Positions 11,903 through 36,273 of a stretch of DNA of 62,686 bases are shown piece after piece. The notes under the pieces are model-generated. The model saw only the letters and a list, made by a program, of their open reading frames with translations, ran no database searches and was not told the DNA's origin. Source of the DNA: Tepidiphilus sp. J10 (GTDB lineage: Bacteria > Pseudomonadota > Gammaproteobacteria > Burkholderiales > Thiobacillaceae); the NCBI GenBank assembly GCA_945897865.1, contig CAMDHJ010000003.1:1-62686 (forward strand), written 5' to 3'. The stretch's first letter is position 1. Each line of letters begins with the position of its first letter. A program made the position numbers and the translations under genes.

Positions 11903-11927
11903 GGGATTTCCCTCTGTCTGGCGCGAA

Positions 11928-13882: not shown

Positions 13883-16171
13883 ATGATGAGACAGACATAT
13901 GGCGGTAGGCTTATTGTAGTTTTTCTGGCTGTCTGGACCCTGATTGCGCCTGCGCTGGGGGCAGAAGGCGTAACAATCGGCGCGGCGACTTACTTTCTCT
14001 CGCCCAAGACTGGCGACAATGCGGTGCCAAAGGCGCCGTACCGCACCGAAGCGATGCTGAAAACGGCGGCCCAGACCAACCAGTGGTATTCATCGCTGCT
14101 GTTCAACGCCAAACCCGAGGTGTTGTTCGCCATTCCCCTGAGCTTCAAGCCCACTTCAGCCGGCTTTGAAATGGCGCTGCCTGGCAAGGTTGTGGTGCCC
14201 ACCGAACGCCGTGACGTCGAGATTCACTACCCGCACCGCGACCCACTGGTGTTCTCGCCGGTGGCATTCGAGCCTGGCCATGCCAAACTAGCCAAAGCCA
14301 GCGATTGGTCAATCGACATCGCCATGGACAATGGCACCGACAGAATGCTGGTGACGATTACCCACGCCAGCCCCTTCGCCTACTTCCAACTCTCACGCGG
14401 CGATATTCGCTTGCGCTTACCGGCCGGCGCCTCAACTTTCACGACGGGGACCGACAGCCGCATTCTGGGCATCAAGGTGAACGATAAAACCTATGCCGTA
14501 TTCGGTCCAAGCGGCGTGCGCTGGGAATCGGCCGCCGGTAATGAGTGGATCGGCCGCTTGCCATCCGGCGCCGGTTACTTTTCGGCCGCCGCCCTGCCCG
14601 ATGACAAGGCGGAAACCCTCCGCTTGTTCAGCCGCCATGCCTATGCGTTCGTTCAGGACACCAAAACCGAGTGGCGTTACGACCAGGCGTCCAGCAAGGT
14701 GGAAACCACCTTCACCACCAGTACACGCATCATGGAAGGCGCTGACAATGGCCCGCTGATCGGCCTCTATCCTCACCAGTGGGCCAACAACGCGTCCATC
14801 GAAGACAAACTGGGTGCGACTTTCGACAGCATCCGCGGGAAGGTGCGTTTGCTCGCAGCGCCACAATTCAAGACCGAATATACCTATCATGGCTTTGTTC
14901 CTTACTGGCCCGGCATCCATGCTTCAGATCGCCTGTCCGAACTGAAGTCTCTACTCAAGACCGACCAGCGCAAGGCCAGGCCAATGATGCTGGAAAGCGG
15001 CATCCTCGGCACCGATCCCTACTCGCAGGGTAAAGGACTGGCGCGCATTACCAAGCTGATGGATGTTGCCGAACAACAGGGCGACCTCGAAACTCGCGAC
15101 CGTTTGCTGGCCCTGGCCAAGAAACGCATCGAAGCCTGGTTCTCCGGCGATGACGGCAAAACCTACTTCCATTACGACAAGTCGCTGGGCACCATGGTCG
15201 GCTATCCGGAGCAATATTTCAGCGTGGTGCAGATGAACGACCACCACTTCCACTTCGGCTACTGGATCCGCGCCATGGCCGACATCGCGCTGCGCGACCC
15301 GGCCTGGGCGGCGAAAAATCAGTGGGGCGGCATGGTCGATCTGCTCATTGCCGATATCGCCACATCACAGCGAGGCCGCGCTGACTTCCCCTTTCTGCGC
15401 AATTTTGATCCTTATGAAGGTCACTCCTGGGCATCCGGCATCGGCCTCGGACCCTACGGCAACAACCAGGAATCGTCATCGGAAGCGGTCAATGCCTGGG
15501 CAGGCCTAATCCTCTGGGGAGAAATCAATGGCGACCGCGAACTGCGCGACCTGGGCATTTACCTCTACACCACGGAAATCGAGGCTATCAACCACTACTG
15601 GTTTGATCTCAACCGGCAGGTGTTCGCGCCGGAATACATGAACACCGAGGTCAGCATGCTGTTTGGCGGCAAGTACGCCCACAACACCTGGTGGACTGAC
15701 GAACCGCGCCAGATACACGGCATCAATCTGCTGCCGATCACCACCAGTTCAACCTACCTGGGTCGCGACCCGGCCTTCGTCAAGCGCAATCTGGACGCAA
15801 TTCACGGCGAAAGCGAAATCTACGCCTCACGTGGCAAGCGGCCCAATCCGCCGGATATCTGGCAGGACATCTTCGCCAAGTATCAGGCCCTGACCGACCC
15901 CCAGGCCGGCCTGTCGCATTGGGACCGCTGGGGCGCCGTGGAATTGGGCGACACTCGCACGCACACGTTGCACTGGCTGCTGAGTTTGAAGGAAATGGGT
16001 ACGCCGGACTTCGGCATCACCGCCAACACCCCGCTGTATTCAGTGTTCAAGCGCGCAGACGGCAAAATGACCTACCTGGCCTACAACGCCGGCAAGACCC
16101 CCATCACCGTTCGTTTCAGCGATGGCAAGACATTGACCGTGGCCCCAGCCTCACTGGGACGCAGCGACTGA
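13883..16171 (+). CDS. Secreted GH81 endo-beta-1,3-glucanase
   Basis: The 762-residue protein has a signal peptide ending near ALG-AEG and a full GH81 body. Marks of the family include TNQWYSSLLF near the start, HHFHFGYW, FDPYEGHSWASG and the catalytic NNQESSSEA block. GH81 enzymes cleave internal beta-1,3 bonds in laminarin, curdlan or fungal glucan. No lipobox is present, so it is periplasmic or secreted. A weak operator lies 45 bp before the start (13883, ATGATG). It probably makes oligosaccharides for the porin and ABC importer. Confidence 0.93.
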   Translation: MMRQTYGGRLIVVFLAVWTLIAPALGAEGVTIGAATYFLSPKTGDNAVPKAPYRTEAMLKTAAQTNQWYSSLLFNAKPEVLFAIPLSFKPTSAGFEMALPGKVVVPTERRDVEIHYPHRDPLVFSPVAFEPGHAKLAKASDWSIDIAMDNGTDRMLVTITHASPFAYFQLSRGDIRLRLPAGASTFTTGTDSRILGIKVNDKTYAVFGPSGVRWESAAGNEWIGRLPSGAGYFSAAALPDDKAETLRLFSRHAYAFVQDTKTEWRYDQASSKVETTFTTSTRIMEGADNGPLIGLYPHQWANNASIEDKLGATFDSIRGKVRLLAAPQFKTEYTYHGFVPYWPGIHASDRLSELKSLLKTDQRKARPMMLESGILGTDPYSQGKGLARITKLMDVAEQQGDLETRDRLLALAKKRIEAWFSGDDGKTYFHYDKSLGTMVGYPEQYFSVVQMNDHHFHFGYWIRAMADIALRDPAWAAKNQWGGMVDLLIADIATSQRGRADFPFLRNFDPYEGHSWASGIGLGPYGNNQESSSEAVNAWAGLILWGEINGDRELRDLGIYLYTTEIEAINHYWFDLNRQVFAPEYMNTEVSMLFGGKYAHNTWWTDEPRQIHGINLLPITTSSTYLGRDPAFVKRNLDAIHGESEIYASRGKRPNPPDIWQDIFAKYQALTDPQAGLSHWDRWGAVELGDTRTHTLHWLLSLKEMGTPDFGITANTPLYSVFKRADGKMTYLAYNAGKTPITVRFSDGKTLTVAPASLGRSD

Positions 16172-16296: not shown

Positions 16297-16324
16297 TGAA
16301 ACCGCTTTCATGCAAGCGGTTTCA
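16297..16324. promoter_or_regulatory. Two abutting LacI-type operators
   Basis: TGAAACCGCTTTCA (16297-16310) is followed without a gap by TGCAAGCGGTTTCA (16311-16324). Together they form a nearly perfect 28-bp palindrome. The pair lies about 95 bp before the start of the glucan-binding lipoprotein and could bind two dimers or one tetramer. Confidence 0.72.
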
Positions 16325-16417
16325 GATGTATCTTATCGATTCCGCCGCACCCCAGATTCACCCGTCCGCTCCCGTACCGCGGCATCGAATCGGGTTCTAC
16401 CCTTGAGGAGAAACGCA

Positions 16418-19438: not shown

Positions 19439-20494
19439 GTGAAGAAGAAAACCAGCCAACCTGAGACGACACCCATGTCGTTGAGCCGGGAGTCCGCTCC
19501 GGTGACCATGGAAATGGTCGCCAAGGCCGCCGGCGTCTCCATGAGTACGGTGTCGCGGGTTCTCACCGGCACAGTGGCGGTCAGCGAAACGAAGCGAGTG
19601 GCGATCGAGAAGGCCATTGCCGAGCTGCGCTTTGTGCCCAGTCCGGTGGCGCGAAGCCTGGCTAAAGGGCGATCGATGACTATCGGCATAGTCACGCAGG
19701 CCATCGACAGTCCGTTTTATGGTCTAGCGATGCGTGGCATCGAAGATGAACTCAATCCGGCCGGTTACATGCCTTTGTTTGTCAGCGGCCACTGGAATGT
19801 CAAAACCGAATGCCAGTGCATTGACGCGTTGCGCGCCCGTCGCGTGGACGGCGTCATCGTGCTCACCGGGCGCTTGACCGATCAAGCCCTGATCGAGTGC
19901 GCTAGATTCCTGCCGACGGTAGTTACTGGCCGTAACCTGACTGCTCCTGGTATTTGTGCCATGAACTTCGATCACTTTTCAGGCGGCATGCTGGCCACCC
20001 GATTCCTGCTCGAATCTGGACACAGACGCATCGCTTTCATCGCCGGCGATCCTGACCAACCCAACTCCAGCGAGCGTCAGCGTGGCTATCAAGCAGCGCT
20101 GGAAGCGGCAGGCATTGCCTTCGACCCGGACCTGGTGATGCCCGGTGATTTTCATGAGGCCAGCGGCATGCTGGCTGTGGATCGCCTGGTCACTGCGCAT
20201 ATCCCGTTCACCGCCATCTTTGCCGCCAACGACCAGATGGCCTACGGCGCTGCGCTTGGCCTGCGCCGGCGCGGATTGAGGGTGCCCGACGATGTCTCAC
20301 TGGTCGGCTTCGATGACTTGCCCGGTTCGCAATATGCGGCGCCCCCGCTGACTTCGGTGCGGCAACCTGCCTATGAACTGGGACAAGTGGCGGCTGTAGC
20401 CATGCTGCAGATGCTGAGCGGCACTATACCGACCTGCGACCTGCCGCCTTTGACTCTGACCACGCGCGAGTCGACCCGCCGCCTGCTCGGCTGA
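19439..20494 (+). CDS. LacI-family transcriptional regulator of the glucan locus
   Basis: The protein of up to 351 residues has an N-terminal LacI helix-turn-helix (MEMVAKAAGVSMSTVSRVL, residues 24-42) with the hinge-helix region SPVARSLAKG, then a periplasmic-binding-protein-like effector domain ending with the usual FDDLPGSQYAAPPLTSVRQP block. GTG 19439 is one start; ATG 19475 is an alternative that keeps the DNA-binding domain. The gene sits between the glucan-binding lipoprotein and the importer operon. Its most likely targets are the TGAAAGCGCTTTCA-like sites at 13476, 13825, 16297, 19307 and 20569. The inducer is probably a laminari-oligosaccharide or glucose, which is inference. Confidence 0.93.
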   Translation: MKKKTSQPETTPMSLSRESAPVTMEMVAKAAGVSMSTVSRVLTGTVAVSETKRVAIEKAIAELRFVPSPVARSLAKGRSMTIGIVTQAIDSPFYGLAMRGIEDELNPAGYMPLFVSGHWNVKTECQCIDALRARRVDGVIVLTGRLTDQALIECARFLPTVVTGRNLTAPGICAMNFDHFSGGMLATRFLLESGHRRIAFIAGDPDQPNSSERQRGYQAALEAAGIAFDPDLVMPGDFHEASGMLAVDRLVTAHIPFTAIFAANDQMAYGAALGLRRRGLRVPDDVSLVGFDDLPGSQYAAPPLTSVRQPAYELGQVAAVAMLQMLSGTIPTCDLPPLTLTTRESTRRLLG

Positions 20495-20582: not shown

Positions 20583-20636
20583 TATTGCGCTTGAATAGAT
20601 CGCGAGTGCCGGAACAAGGTCGAATTGGAGACAGCA

Positions 20637-21908
20637 ATGTGGCTTGAGGGTCAGCGATATTTTTCATGCGGGGCCCTGGCTTTAGCGGTCATGATCGGGC
20701 TCATGCAGGCTGATGCGCTAGCCCGCCAAACACTGACCGTAGCCGCTTTTCCCGCCGTCGACGAAATCGTCAAGGCAGCGATACCGGTGTGGAAGCGCAG
20801 CCATCCCGAGGTGGACATCAAGGTGGTCAGCCGCCAGTTCGGCGACCATCACATCGCCATGACCACCGCGCTTTCCACCTCGTTCCATCTGCCAGACATC
20901 ATGGCTCTGGAAGTCGGCTATGTCGGGCGTTTTGCCCAGGGAGGCGGCCTTGAAGATCTGTCGCGCCCGCCGTTCGGGATCAGCCAGCACGTCAACCACT
21001 ATGTGCCCTATGCCGTCCAGCAGGCAACCAGCCGCAAAGGAACGATCATCGCGGTGCCGACCGACGTCGGCCCGGGCACTCTGCTTTATCGTGCTGATCT
21101 GCTTGCCAGGTCCGGGGTCAGCGAAGCCGAACTGACTCGTTCCTGGGACAGCTATGTGGCTGCCGGCGCGAAGATCAAGGCCTCGACTGGCGCCTATCTG
21201 CTGGCCCACGCGCGCGACATGAAGGACATTGTCATCCGCACTGGCATTCAACCCGGCGAAGGGCTTTATTTCGACAGCCGCTCGCAGGTGCTGGTGACCT
21301 CGCCACGTTTCGTGCGCGCCTTTGAGCTCGCCCGCCAGATTCGCCAGAAAAGGCTCGACGCCAAAGTGCTGGCCTGGTCCAACGAATGGTCAGAAGGCTT
21401 CAAGCGCGGCAGCATTGCCACCCAGATGAGCGGCGCCTGGTTGTCGGGCCACCTGAGCAACTGGCTGGCGCCCTCAACCCGGGGCTTATGGCGTGCCGCG
21501 CAGTTGCCGGAGAATGCTTTTGCCGCTTTTGGCGGCACCTTCTTCGCCATTGCCAAAGGCGCGCCCGCAGCCAACAAGCCACTGGCTTGGGAGTTCATCC
21601 GATTGATGACCTTGAATCGCGAGGTACAGCTCAATGCCTTCAAGAGCCAGGATGCCTTCCCGGCTTTACTGGAGACCTACAACGATCCATTCTTTGACCA
21701 GACCATCGCTTTCCTGGGCGGCCAGAAGGCCCGTCAGGTCTGGCGTGAAGCAGCCCGTCACATCAACGCCGTAACGGTGCACAAACAGGATGCCTTCGCC
21801 GAAGAGGTGATCAATACCGAACTCGACAAAGTGCTCGATCGTGGCAAGGACATCCGCGTCGCACTGGCCGATGCCGAGCGTCTGCTGAAACAACGGGCGT
21901 TGCGTTGA
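20637..21908 (+). CDS. ABC sugar importer, solute-binding protein
   Basis: This is an extracellular solute-binding protein family 1 member of 423 residues, starting at ATG 20637 after GGAGACAGCA. The signal peptide ends near ADALA-RQ. The sequence VAAFPAVDEIVKAAIPVWKR, VPTDVGPGTLLYRADLL and AAFGGTFFAIAKGA is in keeping with oligosaccharide-binding proteins. It delivers sugar to the two permeases that follow at 1 nt and with a 4-nt overlap. The predicted ligand is a beta-glucan oligosaccharide, from context only. Confidence 0.92.
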   Translation: MWLEGQRYFSCGALALAVMIGLMQADALARQTLTVAAFPAVDEIVKAAIPVWKRSHPEVDIKVVSRQFGDHHIAMTTALSTSFHLPDIMALEVGYVGRFAQGGGLEDLSRPPFGISQHVNHYVPYAVQQATSRKGTIIAVPTDVGPGTLLYRADLLARSGVSEAELTRSWDSYVAAGAKIKASTGAYLLAHARDMKDIVIRTGIQPGEGLYFDSRSQVLVTSPRFVRAFELARQIRQKRLDAKVLAWSNEWSEGFKRGSIATQMSGAWLSGHLSNWLAPSTRGLWRAAQLPENAFAAFGGTFFAIAKGAPAANKPLAWEFIRLMTLNREVQLNAFKSQDAFPALLETYNDPFFDQTIAFLGGQKARQVWREAARHINAVTVHKQDAFAEEVINTELDKVLDRGKDIRVALADAERLLKQRALR

Positions 21909-21909
21909 C

Positions 21910-22845
21910 ATGATGATACCCACTGCCCGGCGCATCTCGCCCACTTGGGCGCCCTATCTGTTCATCAGCCCGTTCCTGATCCTGTTCGCAGTGTTCGGCG
22001 TGTTTCCGCTCGCCTTCTCGCTTTATCTCGCCTTCCAGACCTGGGAGCCGACCAGCGGCCTGGCCGCCATGCAGTACGTCGGCGTCGACAACTTCGCCTT
22101 CGCCCTGCGCGACGAGTGGTTCTGGAAGTCACTCAAGAACACCGCCTGGCTGGCGGTGGCCTCGGGGCTGCCCCAGCACCTGGTGGCAATCCCGCTGGCC
22201 TACTTTATCCACTCGTCATTCACGCGCCTGCGTAACGGCGTGGTAGGCGCTTACTTCATGCCCTACATCACCTCGACGGTAGCCATCGCCATACTGTTCA
22301 GTTCGTTGTTCTCCACCGACTACGGCCTCATCAACATCGGCCTGCAGGCGATGTGCCAGGTGCCCGTGCTGGGCTGGTTCATGCCGCAGGACCCGACCGA
22401 TTGGCTGGGCCAGCCGGAGAACATCAAGCCGGCGATCGCCATCATCGTCTTCTGGCGCTATGTCGGCTTCAACGTGGTGCTTTATCTGGCGGCGCTGCAA
22501 ACCATCCCGAAGGACATCTACGAGGCTGCCACGATGGATGGAGCCAGTCGTATGCAGCAGTTCTGGCACATCACGCTGCCCAGTCTCAAGCCGATGATCT
22601 TCTTCGGCGTGACACTGTCGGTGATCGGTGGACTGCAACTGTTCGAGGAACCCTTCATCCTTACCGGCGGACGTGGCGGTTCCGACCAGGCCGGCATGAC
22701 CACCGCCATCTACCTCTACCGCATGGCCTTCGACTTCAACGACTTCGGCGCGGCCAGCGCCATGTCCTGGCTGCTGTTCATCGTCGTCGCCATACTGACC
22801 TGGCTGACCAACCGTGCTTTCCGTCCGCGCGGGCCTTCGGCATGA
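21910..22845 (+). CDS. ABC sugar importer permease (MalF-like)
   Basis: The 311-residue inner-membrane protein has six hydrophobic segments and the EAA loop of importer permeases (YEAATMDGASRMQQFWHITLP, nt about 22516-22578), which docks on the ATPase encoded at 25087. It starts 1 nt after the binding-protein stop and overlaps the next permease by the ATGA at 22842. An ATG three bases later is an equal start candidate. Confidence 0.94.
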   Translation: MMIPTARRISPTWAPYLFISPFLILFAVFGVFPLAFSLYLAFQTWEPTSGLAAMQYVGVDNFAFALRDEWFWKSLKNTAWLAVASGLPQHLVAIPLAYFIHSSFTRLRNGVVGAYFMPYITSTVAIAILFSSLFSTDYGLINIGLQAMCQVPVLGWFMPQDPTDWLGQPENIKPAIAIIVFWRYVGFNVVLYLAALQTIPKDIYEAATMDGASRMQQFWHITLPSLKPMIFFGVTLSVIGGLQLFEEPFILTGGRGGSDQAGMTTAIYLYRMAFDFNDFGAASAMSWLLFIVVAILTWLTNRAFRPRGPSA

Positions 22846-23711: not shown

Positions 23712-25085
23712 ATGAACGCCCCCCCGCCAAACGATTTGCTGCCCGAATTCCCCGCCGACTTCGTCTGGGGCGTGGCCACCAGTGCGTTCCAGATCGAGGG
23801 CGCAGCCAGAGAAGACGGCAAGGGCCCGTCCATCTGGGACGAGTTTTGCCGGAAACCCGGAGTTATTGCCGATCACAGCACTGGCGATGTCGCCTGCGAT
23901 CATTACCATCGCCTGGATGCCGACCTCGACCTGATCGCCAGCCTGGGGGTCGATGCCTATCGCTTCTCAGTGTCCTGGCCGCGGGTCCAGCCGCACGGCG
24001 TCGGCGCCTGGAATGAGCCAGGCCTGGCTTTCTACGAACGCCTGGTTGACGGACTGCTAGCACGCGGCATCAAGCCCTACCTGACCCTCAATCACTGGGA
24101 TCTGCCGGCTGCCCTGCAGGCCTCAGGCGGCTGGGGCAACCGCGACACCGTGTATCGCTTCGTTGACTACGCCACGCAGGTGGCGGCGCGCCTGGGCGAC
24201 CGCATCACCGCCATCACCACCCACAACGAGCCCTGGGTGATGGCCTGCCTGGGTCACGAAACCGGAGAGTTCGCGCCGGGCATCAAGGATAGAGCCGTCG
24301 CCACCCAGGTCTCGCATCACCTGTTGCTCAGCCATGGCCTTGCCCTGCAGGCGCTCCGCGCGCAAGGCTGCACCAGCCGACTCGGCATCGTCCTCAACCT
24401 GGCGCCGGTGGTCGCGGCCACGCAGTCAGCCGAAGACCAGGCCATTGCCCGGCTCAAGGATGGCCGTCTGGTGCGCTGGTATATGGACCCGCTGTTCAAG
24501 CAGGCTTATCCCGCGGACATACTCGAATTTCTCGGCCGCGATGCCCCCAGGATGGAGGCGGGCGACCTGCGCGATATCGCCACCCCAATGGATTTTCTTG
24601 GCGTCAATTACTACTCGCGGCGGGTGGCCAGCGCCGCCGGCCACTGGGATCCACACGCGCACGGCAAGCCGGTCACCGACATGGGCTGGGAAGTTTATCC
24701 GCAAGGTCTCACCGAGCTGTTGCTGCGGCTCGATCACGACTACGCGCTGCCGCCCATGTACATCACCGAGAACGGCGCCGCCTTCAAGGATCAACTGCTA
24801 GCGGGCCAGGTCCATGACGATCTACGCCGCGACTACATCTCCCGCCACATCGCCGCCGTTGCCGACGCCATGCGCCAGGGTGTGCGCATGCAGGGTTACA
24901 TGGTCTGGAGCCTGCTCGACAACTTCGAATGGGCCTCCGGCTACGCCAAGCGCTTCGGCATTGTGCATGTCGATTACGCCACGCAGCAGCGCACACTCAA
25001 GGACAGCGCTCTATGGTATCGCGAGTTCCTGCGCCAGCAGAAAGCGAAGCAAATGCCAGGCCTGGTCAGCTTGGAAAGGGCATGA
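23712..25085 (+). CDS. GH1 beta-glucosidase, cytoplasmic
   Basis: The 457-residue enzyme has the N-terminal FVWGVATSAFQIEGA signature, acid/base Glu in THNEPW and nucleophile Glu in YITENGAAF. It ends with the usual WSLLDNFEWASGYAKRFG block. There is no signal peptide, so it acts inside the cell on imported disaccharides or short oligosaccharides and releases glucose for Glk. Length and order are normal for GH1. It sits inside the importer operon, between permease and ATPase. Confidence 0.95.
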   Translation: MNAPPPNDLLPEFPADFVWGVATSAFQIEGAAREDGKGPSIWDEFCRKPGVIADHSTGDVACDHYHRLDADLDLIASLGVDAYRFSVSWPRVQPHGVGAWNEPGLAFYERLVDGLLARGIKPYLTLNHWDLPAALQASGGWGNRDTVYRFVDYATQVAARLGDRITAITTHNEPWVMACLGHETGEFAPGIKDRAVATQVSHHLLLSHGLALQALRAQGCTSRLGIVLNLAPVVAATQSAEDQAIARLKDGRLVRWYMDPLFKQAYPADILEFLGRDAPRMEAGDLRDIATPMDFLGVNYYSRRVASAAGHWDPHAHGKPVTDMGWEVYPQGLTELLLRLDHDYALPPMYITENGAAFKDQLLAGQVHDDLRRDYISRHIAAVADAMRQGVRMQGYMVWSLLDNFEWASGYAKRFGIVHVDYATQQRTLKDSALWYREFLRQQKAKQMPGLVSLERA

Positions 25086-25086
25086 G

Positions 25087-26145
<1,059 letters not shown>

Positions 26146-26157
26146 GGAGTGATAAAT

Positions 26158-27063
26158 ATGGCAAGGAAGAAACAGGCAGGCGACTGGGTGCTGGTCTGGA
26201 GTGACGAGTTCGAAGGCGATCGCATCGACCCCAACAAGTGGGATTTCGACATCGGCAACGGTTTCTACGACTACAAGAACCACGCCTGGATCCCCGGCTG
26301 GGGCAACGAGGAATTGCAGTACTACACGCGCGAGCCCGACAACGTCTCGGTCAAGGACAGCCTGCTCACCCTCCGCGCGGTCAAGGAATCGTTGCACGGC
26401 TGCGGCTATACCTCGGCCCGACTCAAGACCCTCAAACGCGACGGTACCCCGCTGTTCAGCAAGCAATACGGCAAGTTCGAATTCCGCGCCAAGGTGCCTT
26501 GGGGCAAGGGACTCTGGCCCGCGTTGTGGCTGCTGCCGGTGGATGACCACTATGGCGGCTGGGCGGCTTCCGGCGAGATCGACGTAATGGAAATCGTCGG
26601 CGAAAAGCCGCACGAGGTGCTTGGCACGATTCATTTCGGTTCCTCTTACCCGAAGCGCGAACTGGTCACCCACGTCTACCCGCTGCCCGGCGGCAGCCTG
26701 GTCAGCGACTGGCACGTCTACACGGTGGAGTGGGAGCCCGGCGAGATTCGCTGGCTGGTGGATGGCGTGCACTGGGCTACCCAGACCTTCTGGTGGAGCT
26801 GCAGCAAGACCAAGGACGGCGCCGGCGTGACCGCGAAAAAGGCGACCGACCTCAACCCCTGGCCGGCACCGTTCGACCAGCCGTTCTACATCGTCATGAA
26901 CGTTGCCGTGGGCGGCAACTTTCCAGGCAATCCGCCGCCGGAAACACCGTTTCCCGCCGAACTGGTCATTGATTACGTGCGCGTCTACGACAAGGTCGGC
27001 GGCTATGGCGAACCCAAGCCGCGAGGCGATGGCCGTTTCCCCTGGCAAAAACAGCGCGATTGA
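26158..27063 (+). CDS. GH16 beta-glucanase lacking a signal peptide
   Basis: The 301-residue enzyme starts at ATG 26158 after AAGGAGTGATAAAT. It has the GH16 catalytic block EIDVMEIVG (nucleophile and acid/base Glu) and the laminarinase-type features WSDEFEGDRIDPNKW, YYTREPDNV and FYIVMNVAVGGNFPG. Most GH16 laminarinases are exported, but here the N-terminus (MARKKQAGDW) is charged, with no hydrophobic core and no lipobox. It should therefore act in the cytoplasm on imported glucan chains. It is 12 bp downstream of the importer ATPase and 14 bp upstream of the transporter-GH17 fusion. Confidence 0.92.
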   Translation: MARKKQAGDWVLVWSDEFEGDRIDPNKWDFDIGNGFYDYKNHAWIPGWGNEELQYYTREPDNVSVKDSLLTLRAVKESLHGCGYTSARLKTLKRDGTPLFSKQYGKFEFRAKVPWGKGLWPALWLLPVDDHYGGWAASGEIDVMEIVGEKPHEVLGTIHFGSSYPKRELVTHVYPLPGGSLVSDWHVYTVEWEPGEIRWLVDGVHWATQTFWWSCSKTKDGAGVTAKKATDLNPWPAPFDQPFYIVMNVAVGGNFPGNPPPETPFPAELVIDYVRVYDKVGGYGEPKPRGDGRFPWQKQRD

Positions 27064-27077
27064 AACGAGGCGCGACC

Positions 27078-29504
27078 ATGAACAATCCTGTCCATAAACT
27101 GACAGTCACCGAAAAGATAGGCTATGGCTTCGGCGATCTGGCGTCGAACCTTTACTGGCAGATGTTCTCCATCTTCATCGCCAAGTACTACACCGACGTA
27201 TTCCTGCTCAGTGCCGCCACCATGGGCACCATGCTGCTGGTCACGCGTATCGCCGACGCCTTCATCGACCCGGTCATCGGCGCCCTCGCCGACCGCACGC
27301 ATACGCGCTGGGGCTACTTCCGCCCCTACCTGATCTGGATGGCCCTGCCGATGGCGGTCACCGCCGTCGCCACCTTCACGGTGCCGTCCTTCGACGGCAC
27401 CTCGCGTGTCGTCTATGCCTTCATCACGCTGTCCCTGATGATGGTTGCCTATTCAGCCATCAACATCCCCTATTCGGCGCTGCTTGGCGTCCTAACGCCC
27501 AACTCCCAGGACCGTACCAGCGCCAGCTCGTATCGCTTCGTGATGGCCCTGCTGCCGGTGTTCATCATCGTCAACACCGCCCTGCCGATGGCCAAATATT
27601 TCGGTGGCAGCGAGAACTCGCCGGCTGGCTGGCAGATGACCATGGGCATATATGCGACGGTAGCTGTCGCGCTCTACTTCCTGACCTTTTTTCTCACCAA
27701 GGAGCGGGTGCATCCCGAGCCGGGCCAGAAGACCACGCTGAAGAACGACATCAAGGATCTGTTTTCCAACCGGCCCTGGGTGGTGCTGTGCGTGGTCGGC
27801 ATCGCCGCCCTGACCTACGCCAATATCCGCAACACCGTGGCCATCTTCTATTTCGAGAACGTCGTGCCCGGTGGCGCCAGTTATTTCGGGCCGGTCATGA
27901 CCACCGGCGCGGCCGCCTTCATCGCCGGCGTGATGCTGACCTCGCCGCTGGCCAAGCGCTTCGGCAAACGCAATTTCTATATGGTGTCGATGGGCCTGAC
28001 CGCCCTGCTCACGTTCGGCTTTTACTTTGTGCCGCCCAGCAACATTGCACTGGTCTGGGTGGCCAACACGGTGATCAGTTTCGTCGCCGCCCCGACCGCG
28101 CCGCTGGTCTGGGCGATGTATGCCGACACCGCCGACTATTCGGAATGGAAGAACGGCCGGCGCGCCACCGGCCTGACCTTTTCCGCCGCCTCCTTCGCGC
28201 AGAAACTCGGCTGGGCGATCGGCGGCGCCGGCACCGGCTGGCTGCTGGCTTTCTTCGGCTATCAGGCCGGTCTCGCCCAGGCTGCACAAACGGTGGACGG
28301 CATCATGCTGATGATGAGCGTGATCCCTGCCGTCGGCGCCGTGATCGCCATGGCGGCGTTGTGGTTCTACGAACTCGACGAGCCCACCGTGCGACGCATG
28401 ACCGCCGACCTCGCCCTCCGCCGAGCGCGCGAAACCGACGGAGCGGCGCATCCGCCTACCTCCCTGCTTTCAACCCCGGTGCTGATGCCGCAAGCCTTCG
28501 GCGCAGCTGTTCCGCAACCATTCATGGAGCCCCTCATGGACACCACCCCCGGCACCCTCCCGGAAACCGGCAAACGTTCTCCCTCGCAGCCCGGACCGGA
28601 GGCTGGCGCCACTTCCGCGGCAATCGGCAGCGAACAGCTGGCCAGCGCGCCGCCGCCCCTGCTGTCGCCCCAGGCTCGCTCAACGCTGCAGAGTGAACTA
28701 CGCGCGCAACTGGTCAGCGGTGTGCACGGTTTCTGTTTCAGCCCCTACCTGGAAGGCCAGCGTCCAGGCACGCAAATCAGCGAGGCGCAGATCCGTTCCC
28801 GGCTCGAGATCATCCGGCCACATACCCGCTGGATCCGCAGCTTCTCCTGTACCGACGGCCATGAGCAGACGCCGCGCATCGCCCACGAACTCGGCATCAA
28901 GACCCTGGTCGGCGCCTGGCTCGGCACCGACCGCGCCATCAACGCGCGCGAGATCGAGGGCCTGATCGCGGTCGCCCGTGCCGGCCATGCCGACCTGGTT
29001 GCCGTCGGCAACGAAGTGCTGCTGCGCGAAGACCTGAGCGAAGACGAATTGCTGGCGCAGATCGAATATGTGAAGCAGGCGCTGCCCGGCGTCGCGGTCG
29101 GCTATGTCGATGCCTATTTCCTGTTCGAGAAGCATCCGCGCATCACCGCGGCCTGCGACGTAATCCTGACCAACTGCTATCCGTTCTGGGAAGGTTATCC
29201 GCGCGAGCAGGCGCTGCGCGCCATGCAGACCATGTTCGAACGCACTCGCGCCGTCGCCGGCGGCAAGCGGGTGATCATCAGCGAAACCGGCTGGCCCGAC
29301 CGCGGCAGCGCCTTCAAGACGGCGGTCCCGTCCGAGGAAGGCGCCATGCGCTATTTCATCGACACCCAGAAATGGGCTCGCCAGGACGACATCGAAGTGT
29401 TCTATTTCGCTGCCTTCGACGAAGCCTGGAAGGTCGGTGCCGAGGGTGATGTCGGCGCCTATTGGGGTCTCTGGGACAAGGATGGCAAGGCCAAGTTTGC
29501 TTGA
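27078..29504 (+). CDS. GPH/MFS sugar transporter fused to a GH17 glucanase domain
   Basis: One open frame of 808 residues joins two domains. Residues 1 to about 445 are a full glycoside-pentoside-hexuronide cation symporter (KIGYGFGDLASNLYWQ, the RTHTRWGYFRPY loop, WAMYADTADYSEWKNGRRATG, twelve hydrophobic segments). Residues 445-550 are a Pro/Ala-rich linker. Residues 550-808 are GH17, with acid/base Glu near 646 (VAVGNEV) and nucleophile near 736 (IISETGWP). Because the carboxyl end of GPH symporters is cytoplasmic, the hydrolase should face the cell interior and meet sugars as they enter. I saw no stop or frame change in the linker. An internal ATG near 28536 might allow a separate GH17 product. 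Confidence 0.87.
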   Translation: MNNPVHKLTVTEKIGYGFGDLASNLYWQMFSIFIAKYYTDVFLLSAATMGTMLLVTRIADAFIDPVIGALADRTHTRWGYFRPYLIWMALPMAVTAVATFTVPSFDGTSRVVYAFITLSLMMVAYSAINIPYSALLGVLTPNSQDRTSASSYRFVMALLPVFIIVNTALPMAKYFGGSENSPAGWQMTMGIYATVAVALYFLTFFLTKERVHPEPGQKTTLKNDIKDLFSNRPWVVLCVVGIAALTYANIRNTVAIFYFENVVPGGASYFGPVMTTGAAAFIAGVMLTSPLAKRFGKRNFYMVSMGLTALLTFGFYFVPPSNIALVWVANTVISFVAAPTAPLVWAMYADTADYSEWKNGRRATGLTFSAASFAQKLGWAIGGAGTGWLLAFFGYQAGLAQAAQTVDGIMLMMSVIPAVGAVIAMAALWFYELDEPTVRRMTADLALRRARETDGAAHPPTSLLSTPVLMPQAFGAAVPQPFMEPLMDTTPGTLPETGKRSPSQPGPEAGATSAAIGSEQLASAPPPLLSPQARSTLQSELRAQLVSGVHGFCFSPYLEGQRPGTQISEAQIRSRLEIIRPHTRWIRSFSCTDGHEQTPRIAHELGIKTLVGAWLGTDRAINAREIEGLIAVARAGHADLVAVGNEVLLREDLSEDELLAQIEYVKQALPGVAVGYVDAYFLFEKHPRITAACDVILTNCYPFWEGYPREQALRAMQTMFERTRAVAGGKRVIISETGWPDRGSAFKTAVPSEEGAMRYFIDTQKWARQDDIEVFYFAAFDEAWKVGAEGDVGAYWGLWDKDGKAKFA

Positions 29505-29511
29505 CCGCGCC

Positions 29512-30435
29512 ATGCCCGAGAACCTCCTGTTACCCAGCGGCCGCGCCATCTGCTATTCGGGCTACCGCCACGGCCAGAGCCCGGCGGAGCGAATCTATCC
29601 TTCGCTTGAACAGATTCGCGAGGATCTGCGCATCCTGCAACCGCACTGGCGCCTGCTGCGCCTGTACGATTGCAGCCCGCATGCCGAACGGGTGCTGGAG
29701 GTGATTCGCCGCGACGGACTCGACTTCCAGATCATGCTGGGCGCCTATCTCGGTGCCGAAATGAACAATTTCGGCTGCCCCTGGGGCTGCACTTATGACG
29801 AAGCACAGCTTGCGGCTAATCTGGCCGAGAACGATGCCGAAATCTCCCGCCTGATCAACTTGGCAAGCCACTACGCGGATCTGGTATTCGCGGTCGCCGT
29901 TGGCAATGAATGCACCGTCGACTGGACCGATCATTTAGTGTCGCTGCCACGCATGATCGAGTTCGTCCGCCGGGTCAAAAGCCAGCTGCGACAGCCGGTG
30001 ACCTTTTGCGAGAACTACGTGCCCTGGCAATTCAAGCTGCGCGATCTGGCGGCAGGGCTCGATTTCATCTCAATCCATACCTATCCGGTGTGGGAATACA
30101 AACAAGTACATGAGGCGCTGGACTACACCCGCGCAAATTTCGACAGCGTGCTGCGCGCCTGTCCCGGCAAGCCGGTCATCATCAGCGAGGCGGGCTGGGC
30201 AACCCATTCCAATGGACGTGGCATCCAGCCGCATAACACGTCGCAGGAACTGCAGGCCATTTACCTGCGCGACCTGCTCGACTGGACCGATCAGGCGGGC
30301 ATTCTCACCTTCGTGTTCGAAGCCTTCGACGAACCCTGGAAGGGCTCGCCCGACCCGCTCGAACCCGAAAAGCACTGGGGCCTGTACACGGTCGAACGGC
30401 AAACCAAACTCTTCATGCGTCACACCCCATATTAG
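29512..30435 (+). CDS. Second GH17-family enzyme, cytoplasmic
   Basis: The 307-residue product from ATG 29512 (ATG 29482 is an alternative overlapping the fusion gene) has no signal peptide. GH17 marks are AVGNECT (acid/base), IHTYPVWE, VIISEAGWA (nucleophile) and FEAFDEPWK, the last also found in the surface GH17 at 10049. It lies 7 bp after the transporter-GH17 fusion and 8 bp before glgC. GH17 enzymes include endo-beta-1,3-glucanases and beta-1,3-glucan transglycosylases, and sequence alone does not separate these. It ends with TAG. Confidence 0.85.
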   Translation: MPENLLLPSGRAICYSGYRHGQSPAERIYPSLEQIREDLRILQPHWRLLRLYDCSPHAERVLEVIRRDGLDFQIMLGAYLGAEMNNFGCPWGCTYDEAQLAANLAENDAEISRLINLASHYADLVFAVAVGNECTVDWTDHLVSLPRMIEFVRRVKSQLRQPVTFCENYVPWQFKLRDLAAGLDFISIHTYPVWEYKQVHEALDYTRANFDSVLRACPGKPVIISEAGWATHSNGRGIQPHNTSQELQAIYLRDLLDWTDQAGILTFVFEAFDEPWKGSPDPLEPEKHWGLYTVERQTKLFMRHTPY

Positions 30436-30443
30436 GAGGCTAA

Positions 30444-31712
30444 ATGCTGTCCGGTGAACTCGCCTACCAACTCGATCTACCCAAACGCGCCGTTGCTCTG
30501 GTTCTTGCCGGCGGACGCGGCAGCCGCCTGCATGGACTCACCGATCGACGCGCCAAACCGGCGGTCTACTTCGGCGGCAAGTTCCGCATCATCGACTTCG
30601 CCCTGTCCAACTGCATCAACTCGGGGATCCGCCGCATTGGCGTCATCACCCAGTACAAGTCGCACAGCTTGCTGCGCCACCTGCAGCGCGGCTGGGCCTT
30701 CCTCAACAGCGAGATAAACGAGTTCGTCGATCTGCTGCCCGCACAGCAGCGCATTGACGAGGAGACCTGGTATCGCGGCACCGCCGATGCCATCTCCCAG
30801 AACCAGGACATCCTCGACGACTACGATGCCGATTTCGTGGTGGTGCTGGCCGGTGACCACATCTACAAGATGAATTACGCGCTGATGCTGGCCGACCATG
30901 TCGCCAAGGGTCGTGAATGCAGCGTGGCCTGTATCGAGGTCAGTCGCGAGGAAGCCAAGGGCTTTGGCGTCATGTCCGTCGACACGAATTGGCAAATTAC
31001 CGACTTCGTCGAGAAGCCGGCCGAGCCGCCGACCATGCCGGGCAAGCCGGAGGTGTCGCTGGCCAGCATGGGTGTCTATATCTTCAATGCCCAATACCTT
31101 TATGCCGAACTGGCCCGTGACATGACCGATGCCACCTCCAGCCACGACTTCGGCAAGGACATTATTCCCCGCGCGGTGCGCAACGGCTGCGCGGTCGCGC
31201 ACCCGTTCAAGCTCAGTTGCGTGACCACGCAACCCAAGGAACCCCCCTACTGGCGCGACGTCGGCACCATCGACTCCTACTGGGATGCCAACATCGACCT
31301 CACCGCCACCACGCCGCGACTCAACCTCTACAACAACCGCTGGCCGATCCACACCTTCCAGCAGCAACTTGCCCCGGCCAAGTTCATCCACAACCAGGGT
31401 GACAGGCGAGGCATGGCCATTGAATCCCTGGTTTCCGGCGGCAACCTCATCTCCGGCTCACTGCTACGCTCGGTGCTCTACACCAACGTCCGCGTGCACT
31501 CCTACGCCAACGTCGAGTGGTCTGTACTGTTGCCTCAAGTAACGGTAGGCCGTGGCGCACGGCTCAAACGGGTGGTGGTGGACCGCGGCTGCACAATCCC
31601 TGACGGCATGGTGATCGGTGAAGACGCCCAAGCCGATGCCGAACGTTTCTTTCGCACAGAAAGTGGCATCACGCTGGTGACACCGCCGATGCTGGCCCGC
31701 CTCGCAACCTGA
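30444..31712 (+). CDS. glgC: Glucose-1-phosphate adenylyltransferase (ADP-glucose pyrophosphorylase)
   Basis: The 422-residue enzyme makes ADP-glucose from glucose-1-phosphate and ATP for glycogen. It has [21 protein letters not shown] (nucleotide-binding loop), [29 protein letters not shown] and the C-terminal left-handed helix repeats. The start follows AGGAGGCTAA. Its location between a GH17 gene and a large phosphorylase is unusual for glgC, which more often sits with glgA, glgB or glgP. It would directly use the glucose-1-phosphate made by the downstream enzyme. Confidence 0.95.
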
Positions 31713-31721
31713 AGGATTGCC

Positions 31722-34700
31722 ATGAATACCCCGACCAGACAGGAAGCCGAAGGCTTCGAACTGCTCGATTTCAACGCGGCACGCCCGTTTTCCGGCTTTC
31801 TGCCCGGCATCGCCGGTGCGCACGGCAAGCCCTTGTGGGTGTTTTATTGCAACCGCGGCCAGGGCATCGCCAGCTTCGGCACAGGCGACCGCAACGGGGC
31901 GATGCTGGAATTTCATCCTGCCGACCAGGCCTATGCACTCACTCCCCTGCATGGCTTCCGCAGCTTCTTCAAGCTCGGCCCCACACTTTACGAGCCATTC
32001 CATACCTGTCCGGAAGCGGGTGTGGCCCAGCGACTGACGGTGCGCCCGGAGGAAATCGAAATCGAGGAGAGCCACGCCGCTCTGGGTCTGCGTATTCGCG
32101 TGGCATATTTCACGCTGCCGAACGAACCCCTGCCGGTGCTGATACGCCGGGTCACAGTCAGCAACGTTGGCGCATCCAGGTTGTGCGGGGAAGTGCTCGA
32201 CGGCCTGCCGCGGGTGGTTCCATTCGGCCTGGATGAACTGTTACTCAAGCAGATGTCACACACCATGCAGGCATTCGCCGAGATCCGCCATGTGGATACA
32301 GCCCTGCCCTTCTACAAACTCAAGGTAGCGCCTTCGGACAAGCCGGAAGTCACCTGGATCGACGGCGGCTTCTTCGCCTTCACACTTCAGCAGGGACACC
32401 CCGTCGCGCAGATCGCCGACCCTGATCTGGTGTTCGGCAGCGATACCAGTCTGCGCACCCCGCTGGCCTTTCTGCACGACGAACGCATCGACCCGTTGCA
32501 GGGGCGGCACGACACGCTAACCGGCTGTGCCTTCGCGCAACTGAAACTGGATCTGGAAGCAGGGTCAGAAACCGGTTGGGATTCCTATTTCGGCCAGGCA
32601 GCAAGCTGGGAAAGCGTACGCGCCTTGCGTCAGCGCATCATCGACGAGACCGGTTATAGCGAACGCAAGCGCAGAGAGAACCACGCGCTCATCGCCAATC
32701 TGAGCGGGCACTTCGACCTGCTCGCCGGCCCGGAACAGCTGGGCCCCTATACCCGCCAGGCTTTTCTCGACAACAGCCTGCGCGGCGGACAACCGGTCAC
32801 CATCGCGGGCCCGCGCGGCCCCCGTGTGTTCCACGCCTACACCCGCAAGCATGGCGACCTGGAGCGCGACTACAACTTCTTCCAGGTCGCGCCCACCTAC
32901 TGGTCCCAGGGCAGCGGCAACTTCCGCGACGTGAACCAGAATCGGCGCTCGGAGAATTTCTTCTTCCCCGGCATCGACAGCGCCAACATCGCAACCTTCT
33001 TCAACCTGATCCAACTCGACGGCAACAACCCCCTGGTCGTTATGCCGGAGAAATTTTGCATTCCTCCGGCGCAGGAGGATACGTTGCAGCAAATGTGGCC
33101 CGAGGCCGACGCCACGGCCTGGCAAAGTCCATTCAGCCCCGGCCGACTGCTGCAGACGCTGATCGAATCGGGTATCAATGCGGATGCCGCCGATGCGCTG
33201 TTCGATCGAATACTCGGCCTCGCCGAGTTGGTTCAGGACGCCAGCCACGGTGAGGGCTACTGGGTCGATCACTGGATCTACAACCTCGACCTCCTCGACA
33301 GCTACGCCGCCCTCTATCCGGACCGGCTGCAGACGCTGTTGATTGAACGGCGCGACTACACCTACTTCGACAACGACCATGTGGTGCAGCCGCGTTCAAG
33401 CAAATACGTGTTGCGCGGAGACGGCACCATCCGGCAACTGAACGCCGTGCTGAAGGACGTCGAAAAGACGCGGCGCATCGCCCGGCGCAGGGAAGCGCCG
33501 CACACCATGCGTTGCGGACACGGCAGCGGACCGATCTACCGCACCACGCTGCTGGCCAAACTGATCAACCTGCTGGCGATCAAGGCCAGCCTGCTCGACC
33601 CGTTCGGCATCGGCCTGGAGATGGAAGCGGACAAACCAGGCTGGTGCGACGCTCTCAACGGCCTGCCCGGCTTGTTCGGCTCTGCCACCCACGAGGCCTA
33701 CGCCCTGCGTCGCGGGATAGCCTTCGTCAAACGCAATCTTGCGGCATCCCCGCTGGCGTTGCCGGTCGAGGTCGGACAACTGGTCAGCGCGGTCAGCGAA
33801 ATCCTGGCAAACGCCGACACCGGCGACTTCTTTCCTGCCTGGCAGCAACTGGCGGCAAAGCGCGAGGCGTTCCGGTCGCAAACCCGGCTGGGGGTGGATG
33901 GCGCGGAAACGCACCTTGAGAGAGGCGAACTGCTGGCCTTCCTGGATGCGACCGATGCCGTTCTGGTGCGCGGTCTAACGCTGGCCATTACCGGCGATGG
34001 ACTGCCGATCAGTTACTACATTCACGAGGCCGTCGAGTTCGAAATCCTGCCGCAACTGCCCAGGCCGGAACCCGAGGATGGCGAGGCGGCGGTGCATGTG
34101 CAGGTCACCCGCTTCGCGCAAAAGCCGGTCGCACCCTTCCTGGAAGGAGCGGTCCACGCGCTACGCGACAGCGACGACCCCGACCGGGCGGCGGCAATCT
34201 ACCGCGCGGTGCGCCAGTCTTCGCTGTACGACGCGAAACTCGGCATGTATCGAGTCAACAGCCCCCTCGACCAGGAAAGCTTCGAGATCGGCCGCAGCCG
34301 GATCTTCGCACCGGGCTGGCTGGAGAACGAATCCATCTTCCTGCACATGCACTACAAATTCCTGCTGGAAACTTTGCGCCATGGCCTGGCTGCTGCGTTT
34401 TTCGAAGACCTGCGGCGTGGCCTGGTGGCGTTCCAGAATCCCGAGATCTACGGCCGCTCACCGCTGGAGAACTCCTCTTTCATCGCCAGCAGCCGCTTCC
34501 CCGATGCCAAGGTTCATGGCGCCGGTTTCGTGGCACGACTCAGCGGCGCCACCGCCGAATGGATCAGCATGGCGCTGCACATGGGCCTGGGTGCCACACC
34601 ATTTCGCCTGGTTGACGGCGAACTTCGTTTTGAGCCCTGCCCCATCCTGGCCGACTGGCTGTTCACCACGGCCCCCAGCAGCGGCTTCAACGCCAACAGC

Positions 34701-34913
34701 TTCGGCCTCAAGCTGTTCGGCCAGACCTGGATCGTCTACGAAAACCCCGCCCGCCGCGCCACCTTCGGACCCGGCGCGGTGGCGCCGGCGGCGTTCGAGC
34801 TGCGCTACCCGGATGGCCGGCGGGTGTCCCATGCCGGCCGTTGGCTGCCGCAGGGACTGGCCCTGGACCTGCGCGAGGGCAGGCTGGCCAGCCTGCTGAT
34901 CGTTCTTAACTGA
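31722..34913 (+). CDS. Large beta-1,3-oligoglucan phosphorylase candidate (GH94/GH149/GH161 clan)
   Basis: The 1063-residue cytoplasmic protein has the architecture of inverting disaccharide or oligoglucan phosphorylases: an N-terminal beta-sandwich domain, then an (alpha/alpha)6 barrel with the block GNFRDVNQNRR (about 398-408), a Gly/Trp-rich barrel (GYWVDHWIYNLDLLDSY) and a C-terminal beta layer. Length exceeds GH94 (about 800) and matches the GH149 and GH161 families of beta-1,3-oligoglucan phosphorylases, which use phosphate to release glucose-1-phosphate. I cannot distinguish the two families by eye; GH149 would fit a Gram-negative host. It starts 9 bp after glgC and its stop lies 7 bp from the convergent GH30 gene. 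Confidence 0.75.
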   Translation: MNTPTRQEAEGFELLDFNAARPFSGFLPGIAGAHGKPLWVFYCNRGQGIASFGTGDRNGAMLEFHPADQAYALTPLHGFRSFFKLGPTLYEPFHTCPEAGVAQRLTVRPEEIEIEESHAALGLRIRVAYFTLPNEPLPVLIRRVTVSNVGASRLCGEVLDGLPRVVPFGLDELLLKQMSHTMQAFAEIRHVDTALPFYKLKVAPSDKPEVTWIDGGFFAFTLQQGHPVAQIADPDLVFGSDTSLRTPLAFLHDERIDPLQGRHDTLTGCAFAQLKLDLEAGSETGWDSYFGQAASWESVRALRQRIIDETGYSERKRRENHALIANLSGHFDLLAGPEQLGPYTRQAFLDNSLRGGQPVTIAGPRGPRVFHAYTRKHGDLERDYNFFQVAPTYWSQGSGNFRDVNQNRRSENFFFPGIDSANIATFFNLIQLDGNNPLVVMPEKFCIPPAQEDTLQQMWPEADATAWQSPFSPGRLLQTLIESGINADAADALFDRILGLAELVQDASHGEGYWVDHWIYNLDLLDSYAALYPDRLQTLLIERRDYTYFDNDHVVQPRSSKYVLRGDGTIRQLNAVLKDVEKTRRIARRREAPHTMRCGHGSGPIYRTTLLAKLINLLAIKASLLDPFGIGLEMEADKPGWCDALNGLPGLFGSATHEAYALRRGIAFVKRNLAASPLALPVEVGQLVSAVSEILANADTGDFFPAWQQLAAKREAFRSQTRLGVDGAETHLERGELLAFLDATDAVLVRGLTLAITGDGLPISYYIHEAVEFEILPQLPRPEPEDGEAAVHVQVTRFAQKPVAPFLEGAVHALRDSDDPDRAAAIYRAVRQSSLYDAKLGMYRVNSPLDQESFEIGRSRIFAPGWLENESIFLHMHYKFLLETLRHGLAAAFFEDLRRGLVAFQNPEIYGRSPLENSSFIASSRFPDAKVHGAGFVARLSGATAEWISMALHMGLGATPFRLVDGELRFEPCPILADWLFTTAPSSGFNANSFGLKLFGQTWIVYENPARRATFGPGAVAPAAFELRYPDGRRVSHAGRWLPQGLALDLREGRLASLLIVLN

Positions 34914-34920
34914 GTACGCG

Positions 34921-36273
34921 CTAACGGGTCAGGTAAGTCGCAATCGAGCGGGGTGGCAGGCCGGTATCCACCCGGCTGTCGCCGACTTGCAACACAAAGC
35001 CGATGCTCGCTTCTGTTCGATTCATGACCACGGTAGCAACCCAGCCATCCGGGTTCACAAAGGCTGTTGCCTCCAGCTCCGGGCAGCCGACTTCGCAACC
35101 TACCCGCCGCGCTCCGGGTTTGATGAAGCGGCTGAAGTGTCCCAGGTAGAAATAGGAACTCTGATACAGCAATGCGTCATGTTCCCGGTCCGCCAGGATC
35201 GGTGCGCTGCAAAAGTTTCCGACGTGGTTGGGGCCGCCCTGTTCGTTAAGCAGCAGGTTCCAGTCGATCCAGCCAACCGTCCAGCGGTTGAGGTCGTTGA
35301 TCAGGGAGCGCGCATAGCGTTCACCCAGATCAAATGAGCCTATGTGCGGCCCGCCTTCCTGGCAACCCTCGGTGAACAGCAACTGCTTGTCGGGCCAGGC
35401 ATCATGTACTTGCTGGACGTGGTCGAAACAGTCCGCTCCATACCAGTGGAAACCCAGCCCCCAGACGTACTTCGCGGCCTCGGGATCGCTGTATATGGTG
35501 TTGGCGCGGTCAATCATAAGGTCTCGGTTGTGGTCCCAGACAACGATGCGGACATGGCCGAGCCCGGCCCGCTGCAGTTCTGGACCGAGAAAGTCGCGGA
35601 CGAAATCTCGTTCCTCCTCAGCGCTGTAAAGGCAAGAATCCCAGATCTGGTTCGCCGCCGGTTCGTTCTGGACCGACACCCCCCAAACCGGCACACCTTC
35701 CTTTGCATACTCCTCGATGAAGCGCACATAGCAGCGCGCCCAGGCAGTCCGGTACTCGGGCAGCAAATGTCCTCCGTGGTTCATCTCACCGTTGCTCTTC
35801 ATCCACGCCGGCGGACTCCAAGGCGACACCAGGATTCTGAGCCCCCTTCCCGCCACACTCTGCGCTTCCTTGATCAGGGGCAATAGCGCCTGGCGGTCAC
35901 GCACAATGCTGAAAGATTGCAGCTCGACGTCACCGGGTGACTCGACATGCGAATAGTTACCGAGAGCGAAATCGCAGCTATTCATATGCACCCGACACAG
36001 TGAATAGCCATGCCCTGTCACGCGATCAAAATAGGCATGCAATACCTCCCTGCGCCGAACAGAACTCAACCCCTGCCAGGTCACCGCAGCCGCCTCGGTA
36101 AAGGCGCCTCCGAAGCCCTCTATGACCTGAAAGGTGCGATGAGGATCGACAACGATGGCAGCCCAATCCAGCTCTGTGCCTTTTTCCAAGTGCAACGGAA
36201 TTTCCGTCAGCCGCGCACCACTGGTCCGGGAGGTAAGAAACATTCGAAGATTTGCTGGGTTTACTTGATGCAC
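34921..36273 (-). CDS. GH30 glucanase/glucosidase, cytoplasmic
   Basis: The protein of up to 450 residues has GH30 marks: FGGAFTEAAA near the start, SPWSPPAWMKSNGEM, acid/base in VQNEP and nucleophile in LLFTEGCQEGG, followed by a C-terminal beta domain. No signal peptide is visible. GTG 36273 is the longest start and ATG 36243 an alternative; neither has a strong ribosome site. GH30 members in glucan loci often cleave beta-1,6 branches, so this enzyme may debranch imported laminarin fragments. It faces the phosphorylase gene tail-to-tail. Confidence 0.86.
   Translation of the reverse strand: MHQVNPANLRMFLTSRTSGARLTEIPLHLEKGTELDWAAIVVDPHRTFQVIEGFGGAFTEAAAVTWQGLSSVRRREVLHAYFDRVTGHGYSLCRVHMNSCDFALGNYSHVESPGDVELQSFSIVRDRQALLPLIKEAQSVAGRGLRILVSPWSPPAWMKSNGEMNHGGHLLPEYRTAWARCYVRFIEEYAKEGVPVWGVSVQNEPAANQIWDSCLYSAEEERDFVRDFLGPELQRAGLGHVRIVVWDHNRDLMIDRANTIYSDPEAAKYVWGLGFHWYGADCFDHVQQVHDAWPDKQLLFTEGCQEGGPHIGSFDLGERYARSLINDLNRWTVGWIDWNLLLNEQGGPNHVGNFCSAPILADREHDALLYQSSYFYLGHFSRFIKPGARRVGCEVGCPELEATAFVNPDGWVATVVMNRTEASIGFVLQVGDSRVDTGLPPRSIATYLTR

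Follow-up and report, generated by a model that had tools for sequence, protein, structure and literature searches.

The window, the whole stretch of 62,686 nucleotides of Tepidiphilus sp. J10 DNA that we analyzed, contains a beta-1,3-glucan (laminarin-type) utilization cluster, and within this cluster lies a gene in which a GPH-type symporter, a linker, and a GH17 enzyme follow one another in one frame (Table 1). The next gene, GH17B, starts 7 nucleotides downstream of the stop codon of this fused gene. Using a simple hydropathy measure, we found no signal-like N terminus in the GH1, GH16, GH17B, GH161, and GH30 proteins of the cluster. The cluster content, combined with the presence or absence of such N termini, points to a pathway in which glucan would be cut outside the cell or in the periplasm, the oligosaccharides would be imported, and hydrolysis and phosphorolysis would follow in the cytoplasm. 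The GH161-type phosphorylase matched no Pfam-A family, yet solved structures of its kind exist. A frame of 915 codons between the GH81 gene and the LacI-family regulator (16310-19057) gave no match to Pfam or to PDB sequences, and 5932-8136 encodes a GGDEF-EAL protein that also has HAMP and Tll0287-like domains.

Table 1. Features of the window with their positions, strand, and basis; signal-like N termini were judged by a simple hydropathy measure.
Feature	Position	Strand	Basis or remark
Third GH17, signal-like hydrophobic stretch near N terminus	10049..11965	-	
GH81, signal-like N terminus	13883..16171	+	
LacI-family regulator	19439..20494	+	
Solute-binding protein	20625..21908	+	
ABC importer permease	21910..22845	+	
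GH1 beta-glucosidase, without signal-like N terminus	23712..25085	+	
ABC importer ATPase	25087..26145	+	Putative start codon
GH16, without signal-like N terminus	26149..27063	+	Directly upstream of fused gene
Fused gene, GPH symporter - linker - GH17, 808 amino acids	27078..29504	+	Open frame, Pfam, NCBIfam
GPH:cation symporter domain, residues 1-451	27078..28430	+	Pfam MFS_2, NCBIfam gph, MelB 4m64
Linker, ~96 residues	28431..28718	+	
Shine-Dalgarno-like GGAG	28526..28529	+	6 nt before internal ATG
Predicted internal start codon ATG, residue 487	28536..28538	+	In frame
Predicted free GH17 product, 322 amino acids	28536..29504	+	Inferred
GH17 catalytic domain	28719..29501	+	Pfam; PDB 4wtp, E 1.5e-28
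Codon of E646 (in GNE), predicted acid/base	29013..29015	+	Invariant in alignment
Codon of E736 (in ETGWP), predicted nucleophile	29283..29285	+	Invariant in alignment
Second GH17 (GH17B), without signal-like N terminus	29512..30435	+	Pfam, 25.9 bits, below the 28.2 cutoff
Nucleotidyltransferase, presumably GlgC-like	30444..31712	+	Pfam NTP_transferase
GH161-type beta-1,3-glucan phosphorylase	31722..34913	+	PDB 9qqk "gh161 phosphorylase", E 6.9e-197; 9h8v, E 1.6e-197
GH30, without signal-like N terminus	34921..36273	-	

Domains and catalytic residues of the fused protein

The frame of the fused gene runs through 808 codons without interruption, and its first part is a complete GPH-type symporter, as the initial annotation had it: the NCBIfam gph model (TIGR00792) was covered from position 1 to 435 of 437 at a score of 390.7 bits (cutoff, 231.35), and Pfam assigned residues 15-435 to MFS_2 (E = 1.5e-100). 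The closest solved structure by sequence was MelB (4m64, E = 4e-40), with residues 8-442 aligning to MelB 3-444. Like the GPH:cation symporters MelB and YagG, the fused protein matches nearly the whole model, but here an enzyme comes after the symporter. D60, D64, and K376, which are invariant in 20 fused proteins, align with D55, D59, and a lysine of MelB, and asparagines stand at the places of MelB D19 and D124; we take these four aspartates to be the cation site of MelB, and the role of the lysine is likewise assumed from MelB. A hydropathy scan, which is no proof of topology, returned 10 segments in the symporter versus the 12 expected, together with a weak segment inside GH17.

The C-terminal part carries a GH17 domain (PF00332, 42.8 bits against a gathering score of 28.2; Glyco_hydro_17 at residues 715-807, E = 6.8e-11), and both catalytic glutamates noticed at first sight, E646 and E736, proved invariant in 20 of 20 aligned fused proteins. 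Its closest solved structure by sequence was the Rhizomucor beta-1,3-glucanosyltransferase 4wtp (E = 1.5e-28), with the Formosa laminarinase 6fcg matching far more weakly (E = 1.4e-6). MlGH17B of Muricauda, reported to be a beta-1,3-glucanosyltransglycosylase (PMC11005184), resembles the present enzyme in being a GH17 without a signal peptide, in a catalytic glutamate spacing of 90, and in belonging to a laminarin locus that includes an MFS gene (PMC13188888), and differs from it in being a separate gene. Because 4wtp is a glucanosyltransferase and MlGH17B a transglycosylase, the idea that the fused enzyme acts by cutting incoming chains may not go far enough, and both hydrolysis and transfer are candidate activities.

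Conservation and spread of the fusion

A single scan of genome contigs with peptide patterns from the window's protein yielded 28 related loci and, because the patterns derive from that protein, the resulting counts do not measure prevalence. Of the 28 loci, 17 (L013-L026, L028, L030, and L039) showed this kind of fusion within a single frame. Three flavobacterial loci held another kind of fusion (L034, L035, and L038), the symporter ended at a stop codon in four (L027, L029, L032, and L033), one was cut by a contig end (L031), and three encoded more distant symporters without GH17 (L036, L037, and L040). Repeats were dropped before counting (L095 and L096, which lie on the same contigs as L023 and L039, as well as L068, L100-L103, and L114-L116), and L031 and L104, both cut at contig ends, were counted as neither fused nor unfused, with L031 being labelled unfused in the trees. 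Hence, homologues are not always two separate genes, and the single-frame joining of symporter and GH17 is confirmed as real. The homologues also rule out a sequencing error. That an assembly error or a missed stop joins two genes in the window, a reading that nothing favored, is almost inconceivable, given that the same kind of fusion recurs in 17 of the 28 loci, including L018 (Paucibacter sp. KBW04), which is not labelled a MAG.

Fusions of this type are rare and scattered. At E ≤ 0.001, no match came from the genus's 22 other genomes or from 14 additional ones of the family. Scoring only two or three candidate positions in each genome, which makes both counts lower bounds, we obtained a full-length match among 399 genomes of the order from the window's own genome only, and the fusion in at least 3 of 299 genomes of L018's family (E ≤ 1e-100; G431, G595, and G677). 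It occurred in 4 of 81 genomes of L017's genus (G430, G432, G433, and G435; G793 is truncated by the end of its contig) and in 3 of 158 genomes of L013's family. At L118 (G792:C130), a symporter with 80% identity to that of the window meets a TAG soon after its last helix, with no GH17 visible in the ~130 bases left before the contig end. At L033 (5968-8499, Flavobacterium UBA6135), a related symporter stops and a GH17 starts 12 bases on, one step short of fusion.

A predicted start site within the linker

The linker varies strongly, with 15 different lengths among the 18 fused genes (window included), all of them in frame, and the position of its second half matches that of the N-terminal tail in stand-alone GH17 genes. 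We estimated pN/pS for gene pairs in each of the two linker halves, divided at the last in-frame ATG, which is not always the Shine-Dalgarno (SD) site; the values are rough, with pS mostly high. In the closest pair, L013/L014, the halves had values of 0.33 and 0.26, and constraint was weaker in four pairs (0.28-1.30), namely, L013/L016 (0.55 and 0.28), L019/L021 (0.49 and 0.53), L015/L026 (0.39 and 0.64), and L023/L039 (1.30 and 0.82).

Within this linker, an SD-like motif precedes an in-frame ATG (Table 1). Under a rule that was set after the pattern had been noticed (GGAG, AGGA, or GAGG 4-9 bases before ATG), the linkers of 9 of the 18 fused genes contain such a site (window, L013, L014, L016, L017, L020, L022, L026, and L030), or 10 of 18 if the GTG with GGAG of L024 is counted. 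Upon shuffling the linker codons, a mean of 1.10 genes and a maximum of 5 had a site, and none of 2000 shuffles reached 9. Synonymous redraws with the amino acids fixed averaged 5.2 genes and reached 9 or more in 8 of 2000 cases; therefore, much of the site signal sits in conserved residues. An SD motif stood before 10 of 26 in-frame ATGs of the linkers and before 7 of the 461 found in the rest of these genes (Fisher p = 4.4e-10, a descriptive value, the genes being related). The internal sites lie 49-72 codons ahead of the GH17 motif, and 25 of 35 stand-alone GH17A genes have an SD motif and a start codon (ATG or GTG) 47-80 codons ahead of that motif. Met-Ser was found at the picked start in 31 of the 35 stand-alone genes and at the internal site in 6 of 9 fused genes. 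As its place, SD motif, and Met-Ser match the starts of stand-alone GH17A, the internal ATG is most likely the old start codon of a GH17 gene. We read these features best as a single gene that would yield, by internal initiation, both a membrane-tethered enzyme and a free one of 322 residues. The predicted principle of one gene with two starts and one stop is shared with genes such as that for Cas11b, in which an internal in-frame start releases a C-terminal part of the protein (PMC11899642); here, in contrast, the longer form is a fusion with a membrane transporter, and the use of the start is a prediction from sequence.

The distribution of stand-alone GH17A genes is in part the inverse of that of the internal site. 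We found none in the genomes of the nine fused genes with the site (in the genome of L013, a GH17A fragment stems from a contig overlap of 98.3%), versus six of the nine without it (L019, L021, L023, L025, L028, and L039; Fisher p = 0.009). L015, L018, and L024 have neither an SD motif with ATG nor a stand-alone copy, with L024 having the GTG site only. Most of the genomes are MAGs, in which absent stand-alone copies may be gaps. Around the site, L021 and L014 align without gaps, and L021 lacks both the SD motif and the ATG there. Because the tree offers one to two independent pairs, the apparent lack of the internal site where a free GH17A copy exists is suggestive only. Alternatively, the full-length fusion could be the sole product, with the SD motif and ATG being a hardly used relic of a formerly separate gene. 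A site that matches the ancestral start could be merely inherited, the residues around it carry much of the signal, and two of the 18 fused genes (L015 and L018) seem to manage without a free copy. Yet, SD motif and ATG are present in half of the genes in a linker that changes quickly in sequence and length, and a separate copy accompanies six of the nine genes without the site; we consider a relic rather unlikely.

Gene order bears on where the fusion came about. Several Burkholderiales have the order GH16 - GH17A - GH17B, often with another transporter next. Of the 12 fused genes that have no separate GH17A copy, 10 (window, L014-L018, L020, L022, L026, and L030) are flanked by GH16 and GH17B, such that the fused gene mostly occupies the place that the stand-alone GH17A has elsewhere. 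The contig of L013 ends at the place of GH17B, which an overlapping contig supplies, and L024 has neither GH16 nor GH17B as a neighbor. In L019, L021, L023, L025, and L039, a stand-alone GH17A lies between GH16 and GH17B, and the fused gene comes after GH17B.

Proposed roles of a tethered and a free enzyme

The explanation that we prefer as a whole, and hold to be probable on balance, is a glucan importer with a tethered GH17 accompanied by a free GH17 from the internal start. A cation-coupled GPH symporter would import short beta-1,3-gluco-oligosaccharides, and the GH17 on its cytoplasmic C terminus would hydrolyze or transglycosylate these as they arrive, which would lower the local level of imported sugar and feed products to the soluble GH161 phosphorylase, GH17B, GH16, and GH1. 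Such a gene may have originated when a symporter gene was placed in frame ahead of the GH17 gene between GH16 and GH17B, with retention of the GH17 start codon and its ribosome-binding site, such that one message would give tethered and free enzyme. If the internal start is used, this would represent a route for gene fusion without loss of the free enzyme, and, if true, a natural experiment in which related species have the same enzyme either tethered only or both tethered and free.

The termini of MelB are cytoplasmic, and, because of the homology to MelB and the five partner enzymes without signal-like N termini, the GH17 enzyme is likely cytoplasmic. The side of the membrane proposed in the initial annotation, the cytoplasmic exit of the importer, thus appears likely, but not that the enzyme is held there only, as the internal start predicts a free form as well. 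A periplasmic GH17 that trims oligosaccharides before uptake would recall the coupled hydrolysis and uptake, and the two enzymes that probably reside in the periplasm, of which Unfried et al. write (PMC6246565). We regard this as very improbable: residues 8-442 align with MelB 3-444, the linker showed no hydrophobic segment, the tails of stand-alone GH17A look hydrophilic, and the five partner enzymes show no signal-like N termini.

Relation to the flavobacterial fusions

According to the initial annotation, no such fusion was known to have been described, but Unfried et al. already reported an MFS-GH17 fusion in 2018, FORMB_24740/FbGH17B of Formosa sp. Hel1_33_131, and describe such fusions as common in marine Flavobacteriia and FbGH17B as an exo-beta-1,3-glucosidase that releases glucose (PMC6246565). 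FORMB_24740 and the fused gene here have in common an N-terminal MFS transporter (12-helix in Formosa), a C-terminal GH17, and a location in a glucan or laminarin locus. Among the papers listed by our searches of mostly open-access literature, none pointed to an MFS-GH17 fusion in betaproteobacteria. The architecture is already known from Flavobacteriia, and we regard the probably independent form in betaproteobacteria, in which an internal start seems to have been kept, as new.

Judged from L034, L035, and L038 rather than from FORMB_24740, the flavobacterial fusions differ from those described here in belonging to another GPH subfamily and another GH17 group, and in linker lengths of 45-49 versus 69-136, which were measured slightly differently. 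Their symporters are 22-26% identical to the window's and are placed elsewhere in a quick tree, in which some branches are long, and unfused members occur in both subfamilies. The GH17 domains of flavobacterial type fall into a single group (support, 89/90), which is also present in Burkholderiales, and the fused GH17 of L023, L025, and L039 are separate once more (100/100). A single clade of all fused GH17 was rejected (p-AU = 0.0058), whereas one limited to the present type, with all of its fused GH17, was not (p-AU = 0.085), in a GH17 tree with weak parts (19 of its 45 inner branches were open, the bootstrap had not settled, and eight flavobacterial rows were of odd composition). Because the symporters belong to another GPH subfamily and a single clade of fused GH17 was rejected (p-AU of 0.006), the betaproteobacterial fusion probably arose independently of the flavobacterial one; two fusion origins are supported by these comparisons, and a third is only possible. 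Both kinds might still descend from one fusion, followed by symporter exchange or divergence, and the 49-55% identity of the GH17 of L034, L035, and L038 to the window's, the unrejected clade of present-type GH17, and the weakness of the tree would all be compatible with this. The rejection of the overall clade and the distance between the symporter subfamilies, each with unfused members, make it quite improbable. That a symporter was joined repeatedly with the same kind of beta-1,3-glucan enzyme in unrelated bacteria suggests that tethering the enzyme to the importer pays off.

An internal start was unsupported in flavobacterial-type fusions, as one linker out of 19 (L035) held an SD motif with ATG. 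In the linkers of the 16 Burkholderiales fusions of this type (L086-L088, L090, L093, L120, L121, L124, L125, L127-L130, L133, L134, and L136), no such site was found, and each locus also holds a stand-alone GH17A. We see about an even chance that the joint reading is right in all its parts, namely, that the betaproteobacterial fusion is a separate event, that its gene has two products, and that the internal start is lost in species whose genomes have the enzyme gene as a separate copy too.

The linkers of 14 of the 16 Burkholderiales fusions of flavobacterial type have a GAR-x-WL stretch in common. In L019 and L021, the fused GH17 groups with those of L013, L014, and L016 (95/94) and the symporter is placed elsewhere, a discordance that hints at exchange between fused genes.
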